A DNA stretch of 64,000 nucleotides from Blautia sp. (lineage in GTDB: Bacteria > Bacillota > Clostridia > Lachnospirales > Lachnospiraceae), in the NCBI GenBank assembly GCA_017515325.1, contig JAFWGA010000019.1, positions 62,001-126,000 of the forward strand. Direction: 5' to 3'. Position numbers and translations under genes: made by a program. This document shows, one piece after another, positions 34,556-48,497 of this stretch (its first letter is position 1; every line of letters begins with the position of its first letter). Below the pieces are notes generated by a model, which saw nothing but the letters and a program-made list of their open reading frames with translations, was not told the origin of the DNA and ran no database searches.

Positions 34556-35551
34556 ATGGATTTACAAGATAAGCATTCTCGGGTTCAGTCTTCCCTAATC
34601 ATTATTCTTTTGGTCACAGCCTTGGTTTTATCTATGGTTACGCCGGTTTCGGCAGCGTCTGTTTCGCTGAACAAGATTCAGACGAATATTTACGTAGGGA
34701 ATTCCACAGTGCTCAGGCCGACGAGAGGTACGGCTACCAATTGGCAGAGTTCTAATCCGTCAATTGCATCCGTTTCCGGTTCCGGAGTGGTTTTGGGAAG
34801 GAGAAGAGGAACCTGTGTGATTGCTTGCCGTGTTTCAGGTGTAGTACTCCGGTGTACGGTCAATGTGCGTACCAGACAGGTTAGTCGATATATTTCAAAT
34901 GCTTATTCAACAGTTTGGAAAAATATCCTCGGTGCAGTTGAGAGTGGAGGACAGGTATATGGCAGAAGGGATTATGCAGCTTTTGCCGGACCTGGTGCGA
35001 ATTCGCCAAATGAATACAGCTGTACGGCAGGTGCCTATCAGGAGTATGGCGAGAACCTTCGTCAGCTTTTGGTTCGTATCCGGATAGAGTTTCCCTATTC
35101 TTTCTATGGACGTGACGGCGCCGGTATTATCTCTGATTTGAGAAGGACCTGGTCGGATTCCAATCCGTATCGGGTTTATTCCGGAAGTACCAAGGCGAGA
35201 GTGATTCAGAAAATTATTTCTTCCAGTGTAGGACAATATGTTCAGGATCTGCGTGCTGTTGAGCTCATGGATCTTTATTTCAGGGATATTCGCAATCTTG
35301 GCGTCCGGAATCTGCAGGCGGCCATGTTTATGGCAGAGTGTTATCATCTTGGTGGATTTGCGGCTGTCAGACGTGTTGTGAACCGTGCCTCCAATAAAAA
35401 CAGCATCAGTTCTCTCAGAACCTCTTTGTACCAGGATCAATATGATTACAGCAACAGTTATCAGATCGGAGACAGCTTTTACAGATCTCGTCATGAGCTG
35501 GTCTATCGTTGGCTGACGCAGTATATTCCTGCCAGTGTTATGATCCGCTGA
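34556..35551 (+). CDS. Secreted Big2-domain protein with lysozyme-like C-terminal region
   Basis: This is a 331-residue exported protein. A signal peptide (about residues 13-34, VTPVSA-AS) is followed by a bacterial Ig-like Big2 domain (about 35-105; WQSSNPSIASVSGSGVV, the usual core). The C-terminal 200 residues contain AVESGGQVYGRRDYAAF, a pattern reminiscent of the catalytic Glu region of lysozyme/transglycosylase-like folds, and SCTAGAYQEYGENLRQLL. A peptidoglycan-acting role is inference. There is no cell-wall sorting signal. A GGGGTGG ribosome-like site lies upstream. It is monocistronic, ending in a terminator. Confidence 0.75.
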   Translation: MDLQDKHSRVQSSLIIILLVTALVLSMVTPVSAASVSLNKIQTNIYVGNSTVLRPTRGTATNWQSSNPSIASVSGSGVVLGRRRGTCVIACRVSGVVLRCTVNVRTRQVSRYISNAYSTVWKNILGAVESGGQVYGRRDYAAFAGPGANSPNEYSCTAGAYQEYGENLRQLLVRIRIEFPYSFYGRDGAGIISDLRRTWSDSNPYRVYSGSTKARVIQKIISSSVGQYVQDLRAVELMDLYFRDIRNLGVRNLQAAMFMAECYHLGGFAAVRRVVNRASNKNSISSLRTSLYQDQYDYSNSYQIGDSFYRSRHELVYRWLTQYIPASVMIR

Positions 35552-35589
35552 TGATTTGTATTTTTTCGGTTTTCCCAAAAGTATAATGG

Positions 35590-35616
35590 GCCTGCCTTTT
35601 TGGCAGGCTTTTTTTT
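35590..35616 (+). terminator. Terminator after the Big2-domain gene
   Basis: GCCTGCC and GGCAGGC form a 7-bp stem with a T5 loop and are followed by eight T residues. Confidence 0.93.
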
Positions 35617-35664: not shown

Positions 35665-35693
35665 TTGACATTCTAATCGGCCTGTGCTATCTT
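35665..35693 (+). promoter_or_regulatory. Promoter of the surface-protein operon
   Basis: A consensus TTGACA (35665-35670) and TATCTT (35688-35693) are separated by 17 bp. Transcription from here gives a leader of about 325 bases before the first gene. Confidence 0.7.
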
Positions 35694-36024: not shown

Positions 36025-36540
36025 ATGAAGAGAAGAAGGACTGTAGTACTCCTGCTTGCCGTAATGGGATTTGCCGGGATGACATCTTCTCCTTCCAGGG
36101 CTTCGCTCATTGTTAAGGAGGATGTTGATAATCGGATTATCATTCCGGAAGTGAATATCCATATAGAGGAGGATTATGTACCACCTGTTTCACCTGATCC
36201 GGGGGACAGGTTTCGTAAATGCCCTCAGGTTGTGAACGATTCTGTTATAACCTGTTATATTCGGGCGAGGATCTTTAGCCTCCAGGGATTTTTCGGCTTT
36301 TATGGTACCGGCGATTTATGGACATATCAAGACGACGGGTGGTGGTATTATCGAAAGCCACTCTCGCCGGGAGAAGCGACCCAGCCTTTATTTGAAGAAG
36401 TCGAGATATCCAATGAGATTTTCAAGGAGAATTGGGGGAAATTGTTTCCTTTGGACATAGGGATCTATGCTGAAGCCACAGGCAATGCTGACAAAAGCCT
36501 GAAAGAGGCCTGGGACATTATGGATGGAGAAAGCATATGA
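36025..36540 (+). CDS. TasA/camelysin-like exported protein 1
   Basis: This 171-residue protein has a signal peptide (1-26, MKRRRTVVLLLAVMGFAGM...SRA-S). It continues with NRIIIPEVNIHIEEDYVPP and an Ig-like beta region with PQVVNDSVITCYIRARI, WTYQDDGWWYYRKPLSPGEA and QPLFEEVEIS. The YY...L..GE.T.PLF pattern is shared by all four small proteins and the 490-residue protein of this operon and is typical of TasA/camelysin family domains that form extracellular fibres. An AGGAAA site precedes the ATG. Its stop overlaps the next start (ATGA). Confidence 0.7.
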   Translation: MKRRRTVVLLLAVMGFAGMTSSPSRASLIVKEDVDNRIIIPEVNIHIEEDYVPPVSPDPGDRFRKCPQVVNDSVITCYIRARIFSLQGFFGFYGTGDLWTYQDDGWWYYRKPLSPGEATQPLFEEVEISNEIFKENWGKLFPLDIGIYAEATGNADKSLKEAWDIMDGESI

Positions 36541-37238
36541 AGGGTAAGATCGTATTGGCAATTGCATTGCTGAATACTGTGGCAGGCTGTATTTTGGCGG
36601 GTAAACTCGAGGAGCCTATGGTAACGATGGCCTATATGACAGACAGCTGCAGCCTGGAGAACGGTTTTTCCTTTCAGGAAATGCTCCAGCCTGCCGGTCG
36701 GCTGGAGGAAAAAAGCTGGAAGGAGGAATCGGCCCAGAATATTCTTCCCGGGGCAGTCCTGCCAAAGGATCCGGTTCTGACCAATATTTCGGAGGGAGAT
36801 ATAAATGTATTGGCTGCGCTGCGTCTGACATTTATCTATCCGGAAGACTGTCCTGATGCATCAAAAGCAGGAACCCCCTTATCAGAAGAGGATATGAACA
36901 CCGTTGTCGGTCTGTTTGATATCGATTATGAGGCAGACACCGGTTCACAGTGGAAACGGTATAGCGGTGAAACAGATCTGGACAATATTCAGCACTTCTA
37001 TTACAGCCATATTTTACAAAGACATTTTCCGTTTGACGGGGACAGTACAGTCCCGCTGTTTACGAGGCTTATTCTGTCTTCGGATACGGATTATGAAGCT
37101 TTTGAGAGGTTACAGAATGTGGGAGGATTTGACCTTCTCATAGAAGGAGCAGTATTGGCGGCAGAAGGAGAGGATGGGGAGGAGAAAGCCAGGGAAGCAG
37201 CTACGGCCGGATTCTTTCGTTTTGCATCGGAGGAATAG
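36537..37238 (+). CDS. TasA/camelysin-like exported protein 2, possible lipoprotein
   Basis: This 233-residue protein begins with a hydrophobic segment containing VAGC (Cys18), a perfect lipobox, followed by MAYMTDSCSLENGFSFQEML, which resembles the AYFTDTDTATNTFTVG region after SipW-type signal peptides. The later part has ILPGAVLPKDPVLTNISEGDINVLAALR and VPLFTRLILSSD, both TasA-family patterns. It may be a lipid-anchored fibre component or initiator, by analogy with TapA-like partners; this is inference. It overlaps the previous gene by 4 bp. Confidence 0.65.
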   Translation: MKGKIVLAIALLNTVAGCILAGKLEEPMVTMAYMTDSCSLENGFSFQEMLQPAGRLEEKSWKEESAQNILPGAVLPKDPVLTNISEGDINVLAALRLTFIYPEDCPDASKAGTPLSEEDMNTVVGLFDIDYEADTGSQWKRYSGETDLDNIQHFYYSHILQRHFPFDGDSTVPLFTRLILSSDTDYEAFERLQNVGGFDLLIEGAVLAAEGEDGEEKAREAATAGFFRFASEE

Positions 37239-37266
37239 AAATCATAGTACAGAAAGGGTAATGAGT

Positions 37267-37995
37267 ATGAAAAAAAGTTTTGTATTAGCAGCAGCGGCAC
37301 TGACCTTAACTGCATTTATTGCGGGAACCACACTATCGTATTTTACTGATACAGATGTAGCAACCAATACCTTTACCGTGGGAGATCTTGCCATTGAAGA
37401 AGTGGAAACGGACTGGAACAACTCCGAGGACGGGAAGGATCTTTATCCTGGCGCGACCCGCTACAAGAATCCGACTGTGAGGAATATCACAGATGTCGAG
37501 GGGGGAAACGAGCCGGGATATGTCCGTATGATTGTAGAGGTCTTGGATGCACAGGAGAATGCGATAACAAATCAGGAGGCATTAGATCTGATCTGGACAA
37601 CCATCAGATATGATGCGGACTATAATGGAACCGGGACAAAAAAAGCGACAAGGGCAAAGCTGGAAGAGAATCACGTGCCTGGCTACAGCCTGGCAGAGCT
37701 TGGAGGGTACGACCTATATAACAAACGGGATTTCACAGAGGCTTCCGATTATACCGGCGGAAACAAGAGGATTTTTTTGTATACGGCAAATAATGGGAAG
37801 CTGCAGGCCGGAGAAGAAGCAACCCTGTTTTCGACGATTGTAATCCCGACTGACTGGACACAGACGCAGATACAGAAGGTTGGCAACTATCAACTCAAGG
37901 TCTCGGCAGAGGCAATTCAGGCAAAGGGGTTTCATACTCAGGCGGAAGCCTTCCGTGCTCTTGATGAAGAAAAGGCTAAGGCAGGTAATTCCTGA
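37267..37995 (+). CDS. TasA-like protein with SipW-type signal peptide (putative major fibre subunit)
   Basis: This 242-residue protein has the clearest SipW-dependent signal: MKKSFVLAAAALTLTAFIAGTT, then LSYFTDTDVATNTFTVGDL. The mature domain shows the family pattern LYPGATRYKNPTVRNI, EPGYVRMIVEVLD and GEEATLFSTIVIPTDWTQ. It is likely the principal substrate of the SipW-type peptidase encoded 1.5 kb downstream and a candidate matrix or fibre protein. The ATG at 37267 is eight bases after AAAGGG; an ATG two codons earlier (37261) is possible. Confidence 0.8.
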   Translation: MKKSFVLAAAALTLTAFIAGTTLSYFTDTDVATNTFTVGDLAIEEVETDWNNSEDGKDLYPGATRYKNPTVRNITDVEGGNEPGYVRMIVEVLDAQENAITNQEALDLIWTTIRYDADYNGTGTKKATRAKLEENHVPGYSLAELGGYDLYNKRDFTEASDYTGGNKRIFLYTANNGKLQAGEEATLFSTIVIPTDWTQTQIQKVGNYQLKVSAEAIQAKGFHTQAEAFRALDEEKAKAGNS

Positions 37996-38006
37996 TCAGA
38001 TAGAAA

Positions 38007-39479
38007 GTGAATCCGCTTATGAGACAAAACAAAAAGAAAGGACATAGTCTCAGTGGACTGCTCCTCCTCCTTTTTTTTCCGGTACTGGCTGCCATTATCC
38101 CGATCCGGGCAGACTGGCATATCCAGGCTCCGGCTGATAATCGGATATCGACAGGTCTTTTCCGGACGAGGATAGAAGAGGAATATATTCGTCCGGGGAA
38201 GCTCTTGCCCTCTCAGTCCGTAAAAAAGATCGTACATGTTCGGAATTCAGGCAGTGTCGATGCTATTGTTCGCCTTAGGGTGGAAAAGTCTTTTGGGCGG
38301 ATAGACCAGGAAGGGAAATTTCAGATAACCCCATGGCTGGATCCGGAATGGATACAGATTCAATATGACGAAAGCGGAGTATGGGCATATCAGGATGATG
38401 GCTATTATTATTATACCGAGGTGCTTAAAGCTGGAGAAAGAAGCAGGGAGCCGTTGATGACTGCTTTTACCCTCAGTGCTGATGCAGCTAACAGCGTAAA
38501 GGGTCAGGAGGGACGGATCCTTATTACTTTGGAAAGTGTTCAGGCGGAGGCGGATGCAGTATCCCTCTGGAACAAGGAAAAGGAAGATCTGATAAGCGCT
38601 TATGAAGCTGCGGTAGAGGAGTCTCGAACCAGGGTATGGTTTAAGGGAGAAAAACAAGGATTTGGCTTTCACCCCAAAAGCACAGATCTTTTTGCCGGTT
38701 TTAAGAATATGTGCCCGGGAAGCGCCCGGACACAGACAATAGAGCTGAGCAATCAATCATCTGAGAAGATTGCCATTTATCTACAGGCGGAGGCTGTCAG
38801 TCAGGATCAAATGTCTGGGGAAGACAAAGAGAAACTGCAAAAGCTCCTTACCGAATATGGAAGGATACAGGTCAGGACCAGGGAGGATAACCTTTATGAA
38901 GGAGCTCCGGACGGAAATCTTCAGGGAAGAAGCGAGGAAGCCTCCTTGGGAACAAAAATATGCCTGGGAGAATGGGAAACGGATGAAACAAAGGAGTTGG
39001 TTGTCAGTCTGCATTTGTCTCCTGAAATGGATAATTCCTTTATGGCTTTGTCAGGAAAAATCCGTTGGATATTTTCAGCAGAAGGCAGGGAGCCTTATTC
39101 TGAGACTATTTTAACCCCCTCTCCGCTTCCACTCCAAACGGCAACGCCATCTCCTGTGCCTGGTTCATCCACAACAGGAATACCGTCGCCCACACCACAT
39201 CCATCCCAAACGGCAACACCTTCTCCTGTGCCTGGTTCTACTGGAACAGGAATACCAACGAGCACACAGATTCCGCCTTTGAACTCATATCGGACCGCAA
39301 CACTTTCGCCGAAACCATTGGGGACAGAAAAACGGATGCCTACTCCATCGATAATCCGGACAGAGTATCCGGATACTTCGGATCCCTTCGACGCTGAAGG
39401 GTTTTTCCTGGTATTTCTGTTGGCAGGGTTAATCATGATGTGGGCTTTCGGAAAAATGATGCGGCAAAGGGAGATTTGA
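38007..39479 (+). CDS. Membrane-anchored two-domain TasA-like surface protein
   Basis: This 490-residue protein has a signal peptide (about 12-37), a first TasA-like domain (40-175; SVKKIVHVRNSGSVDAIVRLRV, VWAYQDDGYYYYTEVLKAGE), a second related domain (225-360; ARTQTIELSNQSSEKIAIYL), a Pro/Thr/Ser-rich stalk (365-455) with a 24-residue tandem repeat, and a C-terminal membrane segment (about 462-482) with a basic tail KMMRQREI. The layout suggests a stalked protein fixed in the membrane and reaching across the wall, a possible anchor for the fibre. GTG at 38007 or ATG at 38019 may be the start; neither has a strong ribosome site. Confidence 0.75.
   Translation: MNPLMRQNKKKGHSLSGLLLLLFFPVLAAIIPIRADWHIQAPADNRISTGLFRTRIEEEYIRPGKLLPSQSVKKIVHVRNSGSVDAIVRLRVEKSFGRIDQEGKFQITPWLDPEWIQIQYDESGVWAYQDDGYYYYTEVLKAGERSREPLMTAFTLSADAANSVKGQEGRILITLESVQAEADAVSLWNKEKEDLISAYEAAVEESRTRVWFKGEKQGFGFHPKSTDLFAGFKNMCPGSARTQTIELSNQSSEKIAIYLQAEAVSQDQMSGEDKEKLQKLLTEYGRIQVRTREDNLYEGAPDGNLQGRSEEASLGTKICLGEWETDETKELVVSLHLSPEMDNSFMALSGKIRWIFSAEGREPYSETILTPSPLPLQTATPSPVPGSSTTGIPSPTPHPSQTATPSPVPGSTGTGIPTSTQIPPLNSYRTATLSPKPLGTEKRMPTPSIIRTEYPDTSDPFDAEGFFLVFLLAGLIMMWAFGKMMRQREI
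39134..39277 (+). repeat. 72-bp tandem repeat, two copies
   Basis: Two units starting at CCAAACGGCAAC (39134 and 39206) encode QTATPSPVPGS..TGIP.. repeats in the Pro/Thr/Ser stalk. The period of 72 bp keeps the reading frame, so copy-number change would alter stalk length. Confidence 0.85.
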
Positions 39480-39480
39480 C

Positions 39481-39993
39481 ATGAAAAAGCTTGGAGCATC
39501 ATTTGTCAAAGCGGGTTCCATTCTGTATCTAACCTTGGCCTGTGCCATTGTACTGCCTGGTTTTTGGGGATTGCATTGCTACACAGTCACCTCCGGCAGT
39601 ATGGAACCTTCTATTCCTATTGGTTCTGCTGTTTATGTGAAAGCCTGCAGCTTCGAAAGAATTAAGGTGGGACAGGTTGTCACCTTTACCCTGGCTGGCT
39701 CCGCTCTCACGGTAACACATAGAGTGGTTTCTGTGGATCAACACAAGCGCTGTCTACGGACTCAGGGAGATGCCAACGAAGAGATGGATGCGTTTTGGGT
39801 GGATGAGAGCATGCTGGTGGGGGTTGTCATGCTGACGGTGAAGGGATTTGGACGGCTTCTGCTCTTTTTGGGTACGGTGAAGGGGAGGGTCAGTGCTTGT
39901 CTGACCGGACTATTCTTATTCGCTACTGCCGAATGGGAGGAAAATGCAGAACATGGGGAGGGAAAAAGCATTGTCAGAAAAAGAAACAGATAG
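39481..39993 (+). CDS. sipW: SipW-type signal peptidase I
   Basis: This is a membrane signal peptidase of the archaeal/ER-like class (170 residues). The nucleophile Ser is in TSGSMEPSIPIG, and the general base region VTHRVVS has His where bacterial LepB has Lys. QGDANEEMDAFWV carries the conserved acidic residues. Membrane segments lie near residues 12-32 and 122-145. Enzymes of this class process TasA-type proteins in Bacillus. Its place inside the operon supports dedicated processing of the TasA-like products. It begins one base after the preceding stop; the following gene overlaps it by 50 bp. Confidence 0.9.
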   Translation: MKKLGASFVKAGSILYLTLACAIVLPGFWGLHCYTVTSGSMEPSIPIGSAVYVKACSFERIKVGQVVTFTLAGSALTVTHRVVSVDQHKRCLRTQGDANEEMDAFWVDESMLVGVVMLTVKGFGRLLLFLGTVKGRVSACLTGLFLFATAEWEENAEHGEGKSIVRKRNR

Positions 39994-40618
39994 GGGGCAG
40001 AAAAAACGGTGGAATGTTTGCCAGATAGGGAAGGTACTTTTGTCTGTCATGATTTTTACCACGATTTTGTCCGGAAAGGTAAGGGGCGAAGCTCTTGCAT
40101 CTGTGGCAACAAACAGTATCATCAACCATATCCGTCCGGGAAACATTTGTATATCCCTGACAGAAGAGCATTTTCTCCCGGATACTCCTGCCGAGCCTGG
40201 TGCCGGCATAGCAAAGGATCCTGCTGTCATCAATACCGGGCTTAATCCAGTCAGAGTATTTCTGGAAATTGCGATCCCCATGAGAGAGTTTCAGACATCT
40301 ATAGAAGGCGGGAAAACAGAAAAGAGGATGCACGAAATGTTTTCTTTTACTGCGGATGCCTCATGGAGACTGTTAGGTGCCAGAGAGTCTCAGGGGAGAA
40401 TGCTGTATGTTTATGTTTATCATCAGCTGTTGGATCCCTCTGGGAAAACACGTCCCCTTTTTGAAGAAGTCAAAACCGCCAGTTTCCTGGAAGGAGATCT
40501 TCTTGCCTCGGAGGTACTCCACATCGGTGCCAGAGCCTATGCCATACAGGCCGATGCCGGTGAAACGGATGAGGAAGCTTTGGCAATGATTCTGCAGCAG
40601 GAGAGGGGGCAAGGATGA
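39944..40618 (+). CDS. TasA/camelysin-like exported protein 3
   Basis: This 224-residue protein has a charged N-terminus (about 26 residues), a hydrophobic segment (29-44, KVLLSVMIFTTILSG) and a TasA-like domain with IAKDPAVINTGLNPVRVFLEIAIP, YVYVYHQLLDPSGKTRPLFEEV. The frame overlaps sipW by 50 bp and uses GGGAGG at 39935 as ribosome site, so the two are coupled. The stop overlaps the next start (ATGA). The exact role is unknown; an accessory fibre subunit is plausible. Confidence 0.65.
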   Translation: MQNMGREKALSEKETDRGQKKRWNVCQIGKVLLSVMIFTTILSGKVRGEALASVATNSIINHIRPGNICISLTEEHFLPDTPAEPGAGIAKDPAVINTGLNPVRVFLEIAIPMREFQTSIEGGKTEKRMHEMFSFTADASWRLLGARESQGRMLYVYVYHQLLDPSGKTRPLFEEVKTASFLEGDLLASEVLHIGARAYAIQADAGETDEEALAMILQQERGQG

Positions 40619-43600
40619 GGAAGAACAAGATCAGGAAAAGAAGGTTGAAAGGCGTCCATAAAAAAGTGGCGCAGCTTACATTGGCAGTAGTGCTCTGCTT
40701 CGGCAAAATCGCTTTTTCCGCAGGTGAAGAGGAAACAGATGTTTTTGTCTGCGGAAGCTGGCCGGATTCATACAGCGTCGAGATCGCGGAGGATGCTCTC
40801 TCCCCTTGCCAGGATGCGGAGGAGGCTCCCCCTCCGGGGGATGGTATATTGGAGGAAGCGCCTGTTTCCCTGTATGATATAGGGGGAGAAGAGCCCTTTA
40901 CAGTCTTTGACGCTGGGAAAGAAGAGGAGGAGAAGGAAGCAGCCCCGGTTTATGATGACGGGAAGGAAGAAGAGCCGCTTCCCGGTGATGGCTTCGCGGA
41001 GAAGCAAGAAGATATTTTTGTCGGTGGAGAAGACAATGCGCTGCAGCCTGTCCGGAAAAATGAAGAAATACCCGTGTCTGCCGATGATGAATTGTTTACC
41101 GCCGGCGATGAAGAGCTATTTCTGGCAGGGGAGCCGGCAGAGGAAGGTAAGGATCCCCCTCAGCTCTTTCAGGTTGGCGGGGCTTCGGATTCCTGGACAG
41201 TCAGCCTTGTCTATTATGATTCTGCCGTTGGCGGTGGGAACCGTGTGGTATATCCCTCCACTCCGGTTACCTGGACTGCCGTTTCCTCCCTGGAGCAGCG
41301 GGTGATCACCTTTCAGATCAATTATAAAAACAACAATTCTTCGGTCGATTATTCCCCGGGAAGTGTTGTCATGAGAGTCCCGGATCTGGCCACCTACTTT
41401 TCCGGTACCCGGTCTGTTGGCAGTATGCAGGCCTTGGTGTCTGCTGATGCCATGGACAGCTCAGTAAAAGTGCATGACTGGTCTTACCGGCGCAGAACAG
41501 ATCCGAATACCGGGTATGCCGAATTTGAGCTGACCAATAATTTCAGGATCGAAGCAGGGACAAATTTCGAGGGAAGTGTCCAGCTTTCCTGGACACTATA
41601 CCCTATTTACGGAGAACCCTTTCATCAGTTTTCTTTGTCTGCCAGCATTCTGGATCAATTCTATACGGATGCCATTCAGTTCCGATATTCCTCAACAGAA
41701 AAGAAATATGATATGAGCAAAGAAGCAGTCAGGCTTATGGTAAGAGACGGCCTTCCCTCAGGGGATTATATCTGGGTAAAATATCGGTTTTCCGCAAGAG
41801 CCGACACTGATTCTGAGGGGGTACGGTTTGCAGATCCTCATTCTATGTATTTTCTTGATACGCTTCCTATGGATGTTCTGGTGTTGGATGAAAGAATGAA
41901 TCCTGTCTCTCCGGAAGAAGGCTCCGGCGGAACATACCGGTTTTTTCCCACGCAAAGCGCATTACCCGAATACTATTCCATACAGCTTGTGACAGGAGAA
42001 TGCTATGTAGGCTATCCTCCAGAGCTGTATCAGGACAGAAGCTTTACCAATACGGCAAAGCTCTACGGGGGGTATTATGTAACGGATGCCTGCCATGGAG
42101 ATCATGATACGGTAAAGCTTCTGGCTCAGGCCTCCTGCACGATTGCAGTTGCAGACTTTGCCTTTACCTATGACGGAGAGCTTTACAGTTTGAGCAAAAG
42201 CGGAGTGAATTACGCCGTAAACAGTTCCCTGATCCGGGACAGGGATGATCTTGTGCCCTTTATTTTTGGAGCAAGCGCCCAGTATACCGGAACTCCGTTT
42301 ACCATCAGGATTGGAGATGACCTGGCTGGCATTTTGTATGAAAACGGCGATTTTCATCTTTTCCAGTCGGGGGAAGCCTGGTTTGACAGCATTACGCTGC
42401 CCCGATTTAAAAATCTGAACGGGGCATATCTGCCCACAGATCGCTATCGCTATTGCCTTTATGTAAAAGAATATGGGCAGGAGGAATATTCTCTCTTTCT
42501 TTCTTATACGGATAATGGCAAAAAAACGATTACCTTTCCGGAGAGCAGCCATGTGACAGCCTGGTATCTTGAGTTGGAAAACCTGACGGAATCCCTTTCC
42601 GTTGCCGGGATCAAGGATAAAAATGACCGGATCCTGGTAAATATGAGGGTTCATGATGAGAATGTGACAGATACGGGGAGCATCTACAATTTCGGCTATA
42701 TGCAGGTCTATATGGATTCTGTAGAACAGATTGAGGCAGGCCTGGCGAACTATGACAATGAACTGACCAGGGAAATGATCGCCTCCTTCGACAGACAGAC
42801 CTATGGAAAATATCAGTTCAGAGCCTGGGCCTGCAATTCCTTCTATCCTGAGATCAATGGATTGAATATAGGAAAAGTAATGTTCTCGGTTTCAAAGGAT
42901 GAATCAAACGAACGCTTTATTTTCCCTAATACAATCAATATCAATGTATCTCGTCGGCAGGTCAATTCTTTTAATACCGTTTTTCGAGGCTTTGAGATAT
43001 ATGATCTTCTTCCGCTGGGGATGGAACCTTCAGGAAGATGGGAAGCAGATGATATTGTATTCAAAATGATCAATTGGCAGAATACCAAGGTGATCCAAAA
43101 GAGTAATGGGGAAATCTTTCCGACCCAGAGGGATTTTCTCACCTATATCAAAAACCATACAAAGCTGGAGAAAGTAGCCAACTGGAGAGGAAGCGGGAGA
43201 ACCTGGCTGAGAATCACCGTGGATCTTTCTGACGAACCGTTGGATCTGTCCGGATTGAGAAGGTTGAAATCAGAGGTAAATAATTCCTGGTGGCAGTCCT
43301 TTACCATATTTAGAATAGATTTTAATACCGAAATTTCTTTTGACGCCTTTCTGGAATACGGCAAGGTTTGGAAAAACAGGGCATATGCCAGAGCCTTGGG
43401 GGAGTCTTTGACAGAGCACAAACCCTGGAGGTTTGAGCAGAGCTACTATGTACGTGATTCGGGCTTGTATGATGCGGAGGAAATGGATATCGACGGAAAC
43501 GGAGACTGCACTGAGTGGTTGTCCAGTTCTGCAGACAGTATCTCGATCTCAGATGTAGTGGCAACCCATCAGGATGTAACCAAATTCGTACAGACAGACC

Positions 43601-44574
43601 ATGACAGCTTTACCAGGGAGACTGCCTTGGCCAGCTGTGAATCCGAATATACCTATAAGCTTAGGGTCAGAACCGGAAACGATGAGGTGACAAACCTGGT
43701 GATTTATGACCTTCTGGAAACGGCATATGGGGATAACCTTCATTGGCAGGGGATCTTTGTGGGAACAGATACCTCTTATGCGGCACAAAAGGGCTGGAGG
43801 ATTCAGATCTTCTTCTCTGAGAATCCGGCTCCGCAAAGGCTGGGTGAGGATGATAGCTGGCAGCCGCTGTCTTCCGAAATTCCTCCGGAAAGGGTGAAAG
43901 CCCTTGCCTTCCGTTTCCTGAATGCGCAAGGAGCTCCCGCTGTTTTGCCTGCCAATACCATGACTTATGTGCTGATCACGATGAGGGCGCCGTTGGCTTC
44001 GGCCAGCGCCGGACTGGCATACAACAGCTGCTTCACCGAATGGAACGCCCTGGATCCGTTCGGTCAACTGGTATATGATATCACCGGGATCAATTCAAAT
44101 ACCGTCAGGGTCACCACAGGAAATGAAATAGATCCCAACAGAATGGCCATGATCACCCTGAAAAAAAGGATTTTTGAGAACGAAGTCGTCTGGGCTCATG
44201 GTAATCCTACCTTCACCTTCAGGATAACAAGACGGGAGGATCAGGACTCCGTATTGAGCTTTTATAAAACAATTATCTTTTCCGGGGAGGATATTGCCCA
44301 GAATGGCATTTTGGCAAAAGAGATCAGCTTTCAGGTTCCTCCCGGCTGTTATCAGGTAGAAGAGGAACCTGTCATGCGCTACCGCCTGAAAGAAATCCAG
44401 GATGTGGAAAACGGAACCGTCCAGAATAAAACCGTCTGTTTCTGTTTGGGATATGTTGATGGAGTGCTGTATCCTTATCAGGGAGCAGCCGCCTTTGTCA
44501 ATGAAAAAGAATCCTACCATGGTTTGTCCGATTGCTGCTATGTTCTCAATCAGGTGTCCGGTCAGTCTTCCTGA
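40615..44574 (+). CDS. 1319-residue secreted surface protein of unknown function
   Basis: I do not recognise a full-length family. A strongly basic N-terminus (RKNKIRKRRLKGVHKK) and hydrophobic core form a long signal peptide to about residue 36. Residues about 40-185 are extremely acidic and loosely repeated (GDG..EE, YD.G.EE, FDAGKEEE). The centre is a long beta-rich region with many Tyr, Asn and Ser residues. The C-terminal 130 residues (MITLKKRIFENEVVWAHGNPTFTF, VPPGCYQVEEEPVMRY) look like a Cna-B/SpaA-like pilin domain. There is no LPXTG motif or C-terminal membrane segment. It is the last gene of the TasA-like operon, coupled by ATGA overlap, and may be its adhesin or tip protein; this is inference. 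Confidence 0.7.
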   Translation: MRKNKIRKRRLKGVHKKVAQLTLAVVLCFGKIAFSAGEEETDVFVCGSWPDSYSVEIAEDALSPCQDAEEAPPPGDGILEEAPVSLYDIGGEEPFTVFDAGKEEEEKEAAPVYDDGKEEEPLPGDGFAEKQEDIFVGGEDNALQPVRKNEEIPVSADDELFTAGDEELFLAGEPAEEGKDPPQLFQVGGASDSWTVSLVYYDSAVGGGNRVVYPSTPVTWTAVSSLEQRVITFQINYKNNNSSVDYSPGSVVMRVPDLATYFSGTRSVGSMQALVSADAMDSSVKVHDWSYRRRTDPNTGYAEFELTNNFRIEAGTNFEGSVQLSWTLYPIYGEPFHQFSLSASILDQFYTDAIQFRYSSTEKKYDMSKEAVRLMVRDGLPSGDYIWVKYRFSARADTDSEGVRFADPHSMYFLDTLPMDVLVLDERMNPVSPEEGSGGTYRFFPTQSALPEYYSIQLVTGECYVGYPPELYQDRSFTNTAKLYGGYYVTDACHGDHDTVKLLAQASCTIAVADFAFTYDGELYSLSKSGVNYAVNSSLIRDRDDLVPFIFGASAQYTGTPFTIRIGDDLAGILYENGDFHLFQSGEAWFDSITLPRFKNLNGAYLPTDRYRYCLYVKEYGQEEYSLFLSYTDNGKKTITFPESSHVTAWYLELENLTESLSVAGIKDKNDRILVNMRVHDENVTDTGSIYNFGYMQVYMDSVEQIEAGLANYDNELTREMIASFDRQTYGKYQFRAWACNSFYPEINGLNIGKVMFSVSKDESNERFIFPNTININVSRRQVNSFNTVFRGFEIYDLLPLGMEPSGRWEADDIVFKMINWQNTKVIQKSNGEIFPTQRDFLTYIKNHTKLEKVANWRGSGRTWLRITVDLSDEPLDLSGLRRLKSEVNNSWWQSFTIFRIDFNTEISFDAFLEYGKVWKNRAYARALGESLTEHKPWRFEQSYYVRDSGLYDAEEMDIDGNGDCTEWLSSSADSISISDVVATHQDVTKFVQTDHDSFTRETALASCESEYTYKLRVRTGNDEVTNLVIYDLLETAYGDNLHWQGIFVGTDTSYAAQKGWRIQIFFSENPAPQRLGEDDSWQPLSSEIPPERVKALAFRFLNAQGAPAVLPANTMTYVLITMRAPLASASAGLAYNSCFTEWNALDPFGQLVYDITGINSNTVRVTTGNEIDPNRMAMITLKKRIFENEVVWAHGNPTFTFRITRREDQDSVLSFYKTIIFSGEDIAQNGILAKEISFQVPPGCYQVEEEPVMRYRLKEIQDVENGTVQNKTVCFCLGYVDGVLYPYQGAAAFVNEKESYHGLSDCCYVLNQVSGQSS

Positions 44575-44927: not shown

Positions 44928-46562
44928 ATGGGGAAAAAGTTTACAGATACTTTGTTCTTTCTTTTGGTAGTCTGTGCTGCGGCTGCAATTACCTTTTATA
45001 TTGGGAAGGATCAACCGCTAGTCATGATGTACAACTTTGTTTTCCTCGGGATCATGGTTCTGGTATATCTGATCGGGATGTTTGAGGGAATGTTCCGCCT
45101 GAACAATCTCAGCGGTGCTCTGAAGCGTGCTGCGGATGAGGTGAAGAATATATTCAAAAAACCGGGAAAAGCGGATCTTTCCCATCTTCAGGTTTTGGAA
45201 GGTATCTTTGACAACCGGTATCTGGACAGGAGAATGGACAATTTTTCCAGCAATGTTTCATCGACTCTTATCGGCCTGGGGGATATCGAGGATTATATCA
45301 GTGAGGAAGAGATTGACATATATGTACACAAAAGGCTCCTGGAAATGGTACCGGATATTTTTACCAGTCTTGGTATCCTGGGAACCTTTGTTGGCCTGGT
45401 ATGGGGGTTAAAGGACTTTAATCCCACCGGCTATGAAGCCATGACTACCTCGGTAGCCTCTCTGGTTGACGGAATTAAAGTCGCTTTCCTCACATCGATC
45501 TATGGAATCGCTTTTTCCATTGTATATACCACCTGTATGAAAACAGAGTATTCCGCTATGTCTCAGAATCTCACCATCTTTCTGGAGAGATTTCACGCCT
45601 ATGTATTGCCTTCTGCGGAAAATGAATCAAGAAATCTGCTGGTGGCAAGCCAGAAGGTTCAGACCAACGCCATGCATACCTTGGCTCAGCAGTTCTCAAC
45701 ACAGCTGGCGGGAAGCTTTGAAAAGGTCATCACCCCAACCTTTGAAAAGATGAATTCTTCCATGGATGTCATGCTGTCCACAGTGACGCAATGCCAGGAG
45801 GAGGCGGTTCGGCAGATTGTGGACGAATTCCTGCGGCAGATGAATGAGAATTTCCGCCTTCAGATGGAGGATTTCAATGAAACGCTGATTGCCCTGAACG
45901 AGGCGCAAAGACAGATGGCAGAGTATTCCCGCTCTTTGTACCAGTCCCTTTCCACAGAGCTTTCCAATTCCTTTGTCAGCCAGGAAAAGATCCTTCAGGA
46001 TATCGTGGAAAAGATGGCCAGTGCCCAGACTGAGTTTACAGAATCGGCCGGTCAGATCCTGAAACAGAACCAGGAGATTCAGAAGGCGCAGCAGTCGGAT
46101 TATGAGCAGGTGGTTAAGTTCCTCCGAGAGTCTGAAGCTTCGGCTGCAAAATTCTGGGTTGCCTGCAACCAGACCATGCAGAAATACCTGGATTCCGCGG
46201 CGGAAGAGATGGAAAAGGCGTCTCAGATCGAATCGAAGAATGAGGAGCTTATCAGCTCAAGTCAGGAGATCGCCAAAACCTTCAGTGAAACAATGAAGGA
46301 ATATGCCCAGTATCAGGCCCTTAATTATAAGACAATGGAAAAGGTGCGTGTCCTTCTTTCAGATATTTCTGTGGCAAAAAAGGGTGATCAGGATGTATTT
46401 CTGGTGGGGAACTCGTCAAGGAATGAAAGCCTTACCAGGATTGAAAGACTTTTGACGGAACAGTCTGAAGCCACCCAGCAGGGACTGAACGAGATCAATA
46501 AAACCTTAAGAGAAGCCACCAGAGGTTCTCAGAAGGGAAAACTTGGAGGTCTGTTCAAATAA
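44928..46562 (+). CDS. MotA/TolQ/ExbB-family channel with long coiled-coil tail (ZorA-like)
   Basis: This 544-residue protein has membrane segments near residues 8-24, 33-50, 144-165 and 188-206. The TolQ/MotA signature is visible in SLGILGTFVGLVWGLKDF and GIKVAFLTSIYGIAFSIVY. A cytoplasmic tail of more than 300 residues, rich in Gln, Glu and Ser and predicted coiled coil, follows. This architecture (short MotA core plus long tail) is that of ZorA in Zorya anti-phage systems. With the OmpA-like partner it should form an ion-driven rotary stator. Neither ZorC, ZorD nor ZorE is adjacent. ATG 44928 follows AGGAGGG. Confidence 0.8.
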   Translation: MGKKFTDTLFFLLVVCAAAAITFYIGKDQPLVMMYNFVFLGIMVLVYLIGMFEGMFRLNNLSGALKRAADEVKNIFKKPGKADLSHLQVLEGIFDNRYLDRRMDNFSSNVSSTLIGLGDIEDYISEEEIDIYVHKRLLEMVPDIFTSLGILGTFVGLVWGLKDFNPTGYEAMTTSVASLVDGIKVAFLTSIYGIAFSIVYTTCMKTEYSAMSQNLTIFLERFHAYVLPSAENESRNLLVASQKVQTNAMHTLAQQFSTQLAGSFEKVITPTFEKMNSSMDVMLSTVTQCQEEAVRQIVDEFLRQMNENFRLQMEDFNETLIALNEAQRQMAEYSRSLYQSLSTELSNSFVSQEKILQDIVEKMASAQTEFTESAGQILKQNQEIQKAQQSDYEQVVKFLRESEASAAKFWVACNQTMQKYLDSAAEEMEKASQIESKNEELISSSQEIAKTFSETMKEYAQYQALNYKTMEKVRVLLSDISVAKKGDQDVFLVGNSSRNESLTRIERLLTEQSEATQQGLNEINKTLREATRGSQKGKLGGLFK

Positions 46563-46583
46563 GCTTCTGGAAAGGAGGTCCAC

Positions 46584-47573
46584 ATGCAAAAGAAAAGGCA
46601 GTCGAAGGATAGTGGCTTTAATGTCTGGCGCTCTTATTCTGATATGATGGCTGGCGTATTGCTGCTGTTTGTCCTCATCATGTGTGTGACTCTTTTTCAG
46701 GCTCAAAAGAGCTATGAGGAGGCACAAGCAAATTACGACGCGATCATCAAGGAGCGGGATGACCGTATCGCTCTTCAGGAGCGGTATACGGCAGAGCTTT
46801 TGGCTCAGCAGAATGAGCTGGATGAGCAGGCAAGCACAATTCAGGATCAGGATGACCAGATTCTGAAACAGAATCTTTTGCTGGCGGAGAGAGCGGCTCA
46901 GCTGGAGGAGCTGAAAAAGCAGCTTGAGGCCCAGGCTGCTACTTTGAATATCCAGTCTCGGGAGTTGGATGCGGCCAAGGCGGATATTACGGAAAAGACA
47001 AATCTATTGAATCTTCAGCAGATCCGCATTGATAATATTATCGGCGTAAAGGCTGAAGTGATTGAATCCCTGCAGGAGGAATTCAAATCCAATCATGTCA
47101 ACGTGAACATCGACAGAGCAACAGGCGCTTTGACACTTGACGCAAATGTTATGTTTGACTATAATGAGTTCGAATTAACTGATGAAGGACGTGTGGCTCT
47201 CTATGAGGTTCTGCCCATCTATTGCAAGGTGCTGCTGTCAGATCAGTACCGGCCTTATCTGGCTGAGATTGTCATCGATGGATATACAGATCCCACCGGT
47301 GGCTATTCCTACAATCTTGAGTTGTCCCAGCAGCGCTCCATGGCTGTGGCACAATATCTATTGGATGTAGAAGGGGATTTCCTTACCAGGGAAGAAAGCA
47401 CTCTTTTGGAGGGCTATCTGACTGTAAACGGTCATTCCTCTGCCAATCCTGTCATTCGGGAAGACGGATCTGTAGATGACGACGCATCACGGCGTGTGGA
47501 AGTCAAATTCCGGCTAAAGGATGACGAGATGATCCAGGAATTGAGCACAATCCTTTCGGAAGGGCAGGCATAA
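46584..47573 (+). CDS. MotB/OmpA-family protein (ZorB-like)
   Basis: This 329-residue partner of the channel gene has one membrane segment (about 21-38) preceded by RSYSDMMAGVLLLF, where D20 occupies the place of the ion-coupling Asp of MotB, ExbD and ZorB. A coiled coil (about 45-150) and a C-terminal OmpA-like peptidoglycan-binding domain (about 170-315; DGYTDPTGGYSYNLELSQQRS, RRVEVKF) follow. The gene starts 21 bp after the ZorA-like gene behind AAAGGAGG. The following map gene is unrelated. Confidence 0.83.
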   Translation: MQKKRQSKDSGFNVWRSYSDMMAGVLLLFVLIMCVTLFQAQKSYEEAQANYDAIIKERDDRIALQERYTAELLAQQNELDEQASTIQDQDDQILKQNLLLAERAAQLEELKKQLEAQAATLNIQSRELDAAKADITEKTNLLNLQQIRIDNIIGVKAEVIESLQEEFKSNHVNVNIDRATGALTLDANVMFDYNEFELTDEGRVALYEVLPIYCKVLLSDQYRPYLAEIVIDGYTDPTGGYSYNLELSQQRSMAVAQYLLDVEGDFLTREESTLLEGYLTVNGHSSANPVIREDGSVDDDASRRVEVKFRLKDDEMIQELSTILSEGQA

Positions 47574-47621: not shown

Positions 47622-48497
47622 ATGGCGCTGAAAATTGGGAGAAATGACCCCTGCTGGTGCGGCAGCGGATTGAAATACAAAAAATGCCATGAAGCCTTTG
47701 ACCTAAAACTGGAGAGGCTTAGGAACCAAGGGGTTCCTTTGGTGGATCACAGCCTGTTAAAAAGCCCTTTGCAGGTAGAAAGAATAAAAGAGAGCTCCAG
47801 GATCAACATTGGCATTCTCGATTATGTCCAGGAGAAAATCAGGGCAGGCATTACAACGGAGGAGATCGATCATTGGGTGCATGAGTATACTATCAGTCAC
47901 GGGGCGGTTCCGGCTCCTCTTCATTTTGAAGGCTTTCCCAAAAGCGTGTGTACTTCCATCGATGATGTGGTCTGTCATGGCATACCCAGTAAGGATGTCA
48001 TTTTAAAGGATGGAGATATTATCAATGTGGATGTCTCCACAAATTATCAGGGTTGTTTTTCCGATTCCTCCAGGATGTTCTGCATCGGGCAGGTAAGCCC
48101 AGAGAAGGAAAAGCTTGTCCGGGTCTGCAAGGAATGCGTAGAAATCGGCATTGAGCATGTAAAGCCTTGGGAACCGTTGGGAAATATGAGCCATGCCATC
48201 CATGAACACGCCAAGAAAAACGGATTTTCCATTGTAAGAGAAATCGGTGGACATGGAATAGGCTTTGCCTTTCACGAAGATCCCTGGGTGGGCTATACCG
48301 GTGAGCCTGGAACAGGGGTACTCATGGTGCCTGGCATGATGTTCACCATAGAGCCGATGGTTAATATGGGGCGGGAGGATATTGTGACTGACGCTGATGA
48401 TGGCTGGACGGTACGCACGGAAGACGGGCTTCCTTCTGCTCAGTGGGAAGTTACCGTCTATGTTACAGAGGAGGGGTGCCAGGTGATCACCTGGTAA
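47622..48497 (+). CDS. map: Methionine aminopeptidase with SEC-C zinc motif
   Basis: This enzyme removes initiator methionine from nascent proteins. The 291-residue protein carries an N-terminal SEC-C motif (NDPCWCGSGLKYKKCH), thought to contact the ribosome, then the type I MetAP domain with metal ligands Asp in INVDVST, Asp in CFSDSS, His in GGHGIG, Glu in TIEPM and Glu in AQWEVT. An AGGAG site precedes the ATG. It lies 48 bp downstream of the ZorB-like gene and could be co-transcribed with it. Confidence 0.95.
   Translation: MALKIGRNDPCWCGSGLKYKKCHEAFDLKLERLRNQGVPLVDHSLLKSPLQVERIKESSRINIGILDYVQEKIRAGITTEEIDHWVHEYTISHGAVPAPLHFEGFPKSVCTSIDDVVCHGIPSKDVILKDGDIINVDVSTNYQGCFSDSSRMFCIGQVSPEKEKLVRVCKECVEIGIEHVKPWEPLGNMSHAIHEHAKKNGFSIVREIGGHGIGFAFHEDPWVGYTGEPGTGVLMVPGMMFTIEPMVNMGREDIVTDADDGWTVRTEDGLPSAQWEVTVYVTEEGCQVITW

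Follow-up and report, generated by a model that had tools for sequence, protein, structure and literature searches.

A 64,000-nucleotide stretch of a Blautia sp. genome (assembly GCA_017515325.1, contig JAFWGA010000019.1, positions 62,001 to 126,000; hereafter the window) carries a seven-gene operon encoding five exported TasA/BsaA-like proteins (A to E), a SipW-like signal peptidase (W) and a 1319-residue secreted protein (F) that closes the operon. As judged from sequence, the most likely role of this operon is to build a surface fibre of protein, fixed to the wall at one end and bearing a giant adhesin at the other. To the model as a whole, in which subunits would join by donor-strand exchange, D would form the base at the wall and F would be an end piece with an exchangeable body, we give an even chance. 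The points proposed here as new are D as a candidate wall anchor, the constant C-terminal domain of F with its exchangeable bodies, and the tail of F that resembles a donor strand. All seven frames lie on the + strand between 36025 and 44574, each overlapping its predecessor or following it by at most 30 bases, as an earlier note on this DNA had claimed along with the closing 1319-residue protein; the frames hold up as genuine genes of a single operon.

Family scans and profile comparisons relate the small proteins to one another and agree with the reading, put forward in the earlier note, of an enlarged fibre operon of the TasA kind that includes a dedicated SipW. Among single sequences from the window, D reached 64.1 bits to the NCBIfam BsaA family TIGR04090 (cut-off 60), and C passed both the SipW-type signal peptide model TIGR04088 (29.8 bits, cut-off 19) and Pfam camelysin PF12389 (25.7 bits, cut-off 22.5). 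The BsaA scores of A (23 bits) and E (11.1 bits) were below the cut-off, E exceeding no cut-off of any model, and B and F gave no match above chance level. At the level of families (E<=0.01), the BsaA model was matched by all 16 A proteins scanned, by 13 of 15 E proteins and by 9 of 19 D proteins, and E proteins also matched TasA (7/15) and camelysin (11/15); BsaA is the closer named family than TasA for these proteins. Profile alignment with hhalign interrelated A, B, C, D1 (the first domain of D) and E at probabilities of 88.9 to 99.9%, led by A with D1 (99.9%) and B with E (98.9%). The second domain, D2, aligned to D1 at 88.1%, to C at 59.0% and to A, B and E at just 2.6 to 7.3%, and the negative controls, W and the F C-terminal domain, stayed below 4% against all subunits. 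A 16-row profile (A11), built from C, E and class-wide SipW substrates, was also compared with PDB sequences: the TasA fibre 8aur came first, weakly (E 0.0067; best stretch alone 0.16), followed by monomeric TasA 5of1 (0.044) and an unrelated chain (0.074), with the alignment to TasA running from the donor strand onward. Searches of PDB sequences with alignments A2, A4 and A7 and with one single protein returned no relevant match. Because of the family scans, the profile comparisons and the match of A11 to 8aur, proteins A to E are assigned to one superfamily, very likely that of TasA.

Further features of these proteins refine the picture. The motif YY..L..G..T.PLF..V..S, which had been described as common to all five, recurs in loosened form in A, B, D and E, against a background of 1 match in 141 open reading frames (ORFs; 33,765 residues) and a mean of 0.005 of 5 proteins after shuffling; C does not match, and by eye shows a related form (FLYTANNGKLQAGEEATLF). 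The dedicated peptidase is borne out by a score of W to the archaeal-type signal peptidase model TIGR02228 of 72.8 bits (cut-off 51.85) and by residues S40 and H80, invariant across 18 sequences; W scored 49.4 bits to the Bacillus SipW equivalog model, far under its cut-off of 190. That B is a lipobox-bearing initiator, as had been suggested, is possible, with mixed support: the lipobox is strict in two of four B proteins (window and L142), loose in L039 and missing in L032, and B lies outside the wider core described below. Candidates for the major subunit are C or E. That the small proteins act as metalloproteases of the camelysin type and not as structural subunits is highly unlikely; PF12389 is named for camelysin metallo-endopeptidase, and both C and the 11 E proteins match it, but TasA, a member of this superfamily, serves as a fibre subunit (PMC9674648), and the presence of several paralogues with an anchor fits a structural role better.

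Examination of gene neighbourhoods, which the earlier note had proposed as a check, revealed that a core set of SipW (W), E, A, D and F recurs together across genera of Lachnospiraceae, with B and C as additions. Protein F was found, mostly through its C-terminal domain alone, in 30 of 61 relatives, all of them within the genus itself (30 of the 37 there), and most of 19 neighbourhood maps had the five-gene form W-E-A-D-F. A scan of named genomes with one peptide pattern, WAHG[NI]PxFxF, yielded 51 loci, including members of Blautia, Fusicatenibacter, Oliverpabstia, Hominisplanchenecus, Lacrimispora and Marvinbryantia and the same-genome pairs L088/L108, L123/L124 and L125/L127. Calling core genes with one profile per gene at a score of at least 60, we identified SipW in 42 of the 51 loci and all five core genes in 40, in five gene orders: WEADF (28), EADWF (5), ACDWEF (3), FWEAD (2) and EADFW (2). 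In nine of the 11 incomplete loci the contig starts within the operon, and two of the nine have SipW. In a family-wide sample, the F C-terminal domain was detected in 41 of 397 genomes (35 of 334 genera). These gave 44 matches, of which our own and that of G005 were already covered, ten were left out and 32 had their neighbourhoods examined; SipW adjoins F in 29 of the 32 (exceptions L149, L170 and L171), and at least five (L145, L147, L150, L160 and L176) overlap with the named loci. The window form with both B and C was also seen in L032, L039 and L142, B occurred with window-type operons only among the loci examined, and C occurred without B in L082-L084. Gene order is fluid, while core content is kept. 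In one genome, G034 (L035, L088 and L108), several F-type and BsaA-family loci lie on separate contigs, one F standing alone. Also identified in other genera (L165-L169 and L172) were weakly matching F proteins beside SipW, present in two copies in L165, together with several BsaA-like genes; given these loci, the system may extend beyond this core.

Protein D, with two TasA-like domains and often a KTGD-type end, looks like a sortase-type wall anchor. KTGD-type signals are cut by sortases, and D is read in this way because such a sorting signal ends many D proteins: among 53 C-termini, VKTGD, PKTGD, IKTGD or AKTGD was found in 25, another xxTGD in 7 and other variants in 15, the remaining 6 having none by regular expression (regex). 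The window D reads PDTSD and that of L032 PDTAD, and the LPXTG-anchor model matched 1 of 19 D proteins scanned. Where D had been described as a stalked membrane anchor, the anchoring role is retained, and the sorting-type ends point to the wall instead of plain insertion in the membrane. By eye, A, B, C and E have no sorting-type end. With D alone carrying such an end and no sortase in the operon, the gene set differs from that of a sortase-assembled pilus.

Protein F combines a variable body with a constant end. The window F had no named domain in family scans, matching neither TED_2 nor SpaA; across 18 F proteins, the thioester domain TED_2 was detected in 9 and SpaA in 13 (E<=0.01), and when four window-type F proteins were scanned singly, TED_2 was found in none and SpaA in two. 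The C-terminal domain is common to all 18, with K1184, E1250 and N1296 invariant; CnaB-type isopeptide domains use Lys, Asn and a catalytic Glu (PMC12617251). The window-type body also occurs in large proteins in L033, L141, L143 and L144, beside which no operon gene was found, and, as a weak match, together with the F C-terminal domain in L163. Because the C-terminal domain is constant while bodies change, F is read from these sequences as a carrier module with exchangeable bodies. Thioester adhesins nearly always carry a sorting signal (PMC4450167). No such signal was detected by regex at the C-terminus of 48 F proteins outside alignment A8 (which holds 18), and by eye the window F ends without an LPXTG-type anchor. 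Two further observations concern F relatives: L143 (G169:C43) contains a 4,998-residue open frame sharing parts of the window F body, and L036, L040, L047 and others have TED_2 domains in which a conserved TH.ALS replaces the TQ..W helix motif. A loss of the thioester Gln from these TED_2 domains was considered and dropped, as the Gln of the TQ motif is not the bond-forming one (PMC4450167).

The C-terminal tail of F resembles the N-terminal donor strand of the subunits. TasA subunits are joined via an N-terminal strand, and the N-terminus of TapA, which resembles this strand, is believed to initiate fibres (PMC9674648). We built a donor matrix from the segments of A to E corresponding to the TasA strand, centred on a conserved Asn that is invariant in alignments A2, A3 and A4, where it was not selected for, and present in at least 90% of 53 D proteins. 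Scored by column, the F tail (N1312) came first of 875 F columns with 6.26, the next reaching 1.42; the best of 149 SipW columns scored -0.02 and the best other E, A or D column 2.54, with true donor segments, left out in turn, giving family means of 5.4 to 12.4. Other columns of the F C-terminal domain, including those with Asn, scored below 1.8 at the four widths that could be scored. The matrix was fixed before the 48 F tails outside A8 were scored, and these had a median of 6.1, compared with 0.8 in 417 control ORFs (95th percentile 6.1, 99th 7.7); the median was 4.85 for 16 F proteins with weaker C-terminal domains. A later regex, written after the tails had been seen, matched 34 of these 48 tails and 13 of the 18 in A8, versus 5 of 417 control tails and 1 of 48 when the 130 residues ahead of the tail were scanned. 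Among hhalign alignments to the F domain, none significant, the best ones of A, C and D1 hit exactly the donor segment and the tail, and those of E and B fall elsewhere. The likeness is strong by column and moderate by protein. Together, the C-terminal domain and tail of F suggest that it is an end piece of the fibre, and perhaps its starter.

A number of observations weigh against a wall-fixed fibre ending in F. The signal of D is degenerate in the window, and the two sortase matches in the genome both lie outside the operon. In Clostridium perfringens, BsaA mostly leaves the cell and makes pellicles, and it polymerises without requiring sortase or bsaB/bsaC (PMC7395162). This behaviour, together with the lack of an anchor of its own in F, would suit a BsaA-style matrix of released filaments, in which F would be a separate secreted matrix protein binding to their sides or via its C-terminal domain; the sorting-type ends of D and the donor-like tail of F speak against such an arrangement, which we consider possible but rather unlikely. 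As to the tail, it is the best-scoring place in 14 of the 48 F proteins (28 of 417 controls) and lies within the best five in 29 (116 of 417 controls), so that the rank results are a shift and no clean split. With a wider matrix the tail gets poor ranks in many F proteins. The window tail scores 5.5 (rank 5 of 1271) and, like those of L032 and L034, misses the later regex, and the F tails are related and not independent, that of L116 being identical to the L048 tail of A8. Further, hhalign finds no significant link between the F domain and the subunits, and L086 and L108 have F, with room around it, without an operon. Weak performance of the wider matrix, the missing hhalign link and the F-type proteins standing alone could also indicate that F is an independent adhesin sharing the operon and not the structure, the likeness of its tail arising by chance or from some other common signal. 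We judge this to be unlikely, given that the matrix tests single out one short region in F proteins across many genera and that F stays beside SipW while gene order changes.

Returning to a donor-strand fibre between a D base and an F end piece, its assembly can be outlined as follows. By analogy with its family, W would cleave the unusual signal peptides carried by proteins A to E, and the mature subunits would polymerise by donor-strand exchange, as their homology to TasA suggests, each subunit completing the beta-sandwich of the next with the N-terminal strand that cleavage exposes. Protein D, having two such domains and a sorting-type C-terminus, would be the wall-fixed base. F has no detectable subunit domain; because its tail mimics the donor strand of the subunits, it would occupy the groove that otherwise stays empty at one fibre end, as the TapA N-terminus is believed to do. 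F would then be starter and tip at once, its species-varying body presumably held outward. The window variant has B and C in addition, which would give a mixed fibre, and has its own F body.

A more specific version of this mechanism is tentative, and on balance we doubt it: the operons would define a separate class of Gram-positive pilus in Lachnospiraceae, with donor-strand joints locked by Asn-Lys isopeptide bonds, a sortase-fixed D and a swappable F tip. The conserved donor-strand Asn of one subunit would bond spontaneously with a Lys, likewise conserved, of the next, a conserved Glu acting as catalyst, and the F tip adhesin, often with a thioester domain, would be plugged in by its C-terminal copy of the donor strand. 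Across A11, all 16 rows have N11 and K43 and at least 90% have E24, the invariance of Asn being partly selected, since 8 of the 16 rows were picked by a regex requiring it; when A11 is aligned to TasA from the PDB, TasA keeps Lys and Glu and has Ala in place of Asn. BsaA made in Escherichia coli without sortase forms ladders that resist SDS and formic acid (PMC7395162), and an isopeptide lock would explain them.

If the model is true, common gut bacteria have a pilus assembled by donor strands, a principle familiar above all from the chaperone-usher pili of Gram-negative bacteria; its base would be fixed to the wall, and its adhesin would be exchangeable and in many species carry a domain type able to bond covalently to host proteins. 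TasA-like fibres would gain a tip and a base, the idea of a starter strand would become testable in other bacteria, and a reason would be offered for the survival of BsaA polymers on boiling in SDS. In the open-access literature we found no paper joining SipW with Blautia, and none joining a thioester domain with Blautia; for a thioester domain together with SipW, a single review of general scope came up.

Coordinates of the operon and its parts are collected in Table 1. For gene C, the list of ORFs also holds a longer frame starting at 37174. A terminator-like hairpin (35588-35610) lies upstream of the weak promoter-like site, and separates the operon from the gene of a secreted 331-residue protein (34556-35551), a 66% identical relative of which precedes the L032 operon. 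The scan for such signals was weak, the region holding 24 promoter-like sites against 11.9 in shuffles and 8 terminator-like ones against 9.0. At Rfam gathering scores, two tRNAs were the only matches in the window, and the operon leader had no convincing match. The leader of the L032 operon contains 2.3 copies of a 97-bp tandem repeat (L032:3977-4197), and a 46-bp stretch of the window leader has 80% identity to L032. After the operon, a gene pair resembling ZorA (64 bits) and ZorB (222 bits) occupies 44928-47573, followed by a third gene with weak matches only (47622-48497) and then by genes similar to those for ribosomal protein L19 and a signal peptidase; no Zorya effector was detected. 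The source genome comprises 3.3 Mb in 68 contigs.

Table 1. Positions of the operon genes and associated features in the window.
Feature	Position	Strand	Description
Gene A	36025..36540	+	BsaA-like SipW-type exported protein, 171 aa; core set
Gene B	36537..37238	+	TasA/BsaA-like exported protein, 233 aa; lipobox-like VAGC
Gene C	37267..37995	+	Camelysin/TasA-like, 242 aa; candidate major subunit
Gene D	38007..39479	+	Two TasA/BsaA-like domains, stalk and putative C-terminal anchor, 490 aa; core set
D C-terminus	39366..39476	+	Degenerate sorting-type signal with PDTSD, a hydrophobic stretch and a basic end
Gene W	39481..39993	+	SipW-like signal peptidase, 170 aa; core set
Gene E	39944..40618	+	TasA/BsaA-like, 224 aa counted from first start; core set
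Gene F	40615..44574	+	Secreted 1319-aa protein, exchangeable body; core set
F C-terminal domain	44146..44502	+	K1184, E1250, N1296 invariant; candidate CnaB isopeptide type
F tail	44503..44571	+	Resembles subunit donor strand in matrix tests; N1312 invariant
Promoter-like site (weak)	35665..35693	+	TTGACA-17-TATCTT; consensus scan

Comparison with known systems places the operon among several described architectures. Archaeal threads resemble the model in being donor-strand filaments with a covalent bond proposed between subunits (PMC9715654); their subunits are different, however, and a covalent bond is purely hypothetical here. The thioester, isopeptide and ester domain (TIE) adhesins share an N-terminal thioester domain and SpaA-type repeats with many F relatives, whereas F has its shared C-terminal domain and donor-like tail where their LPXTG end would be (PMC4450167). 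As proposed for the present operon, the TasA/CalY/CapP system of Bacillus cereus comprises a mixed SipW-processed fibre and a helper protein, and a giant adhesin or sorting-type anchor is not described in the excerpts consulted (PMC13082335). With the tapA-sipW-tasA operon of Bacillus subtilis, the present one shares SipW and subunits of the TasA superfamily, and F may match TapA as a partner that is no subunit itself but carries a strand like the donor strand (PMC9674648, PMC10151520). The present operon differs in having five superfamily members and a wall-anchor candidate, and in that the candidate donor-like strand is the C-terminus of a giant protein here and the N-terminus of a small one in B. 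subtilis (PMC9674648). The C. perfringens sipW-bsaABCRSD operon holds bsaRS two-component genes, none of which was seen among the seven genes here, and like the present operon it sets SipW beside a BsaA-family protein, there forming filaments, and further secreted proteins (PMC7395162); sipW-bsaA of C. perfringens is the closest characterised system.

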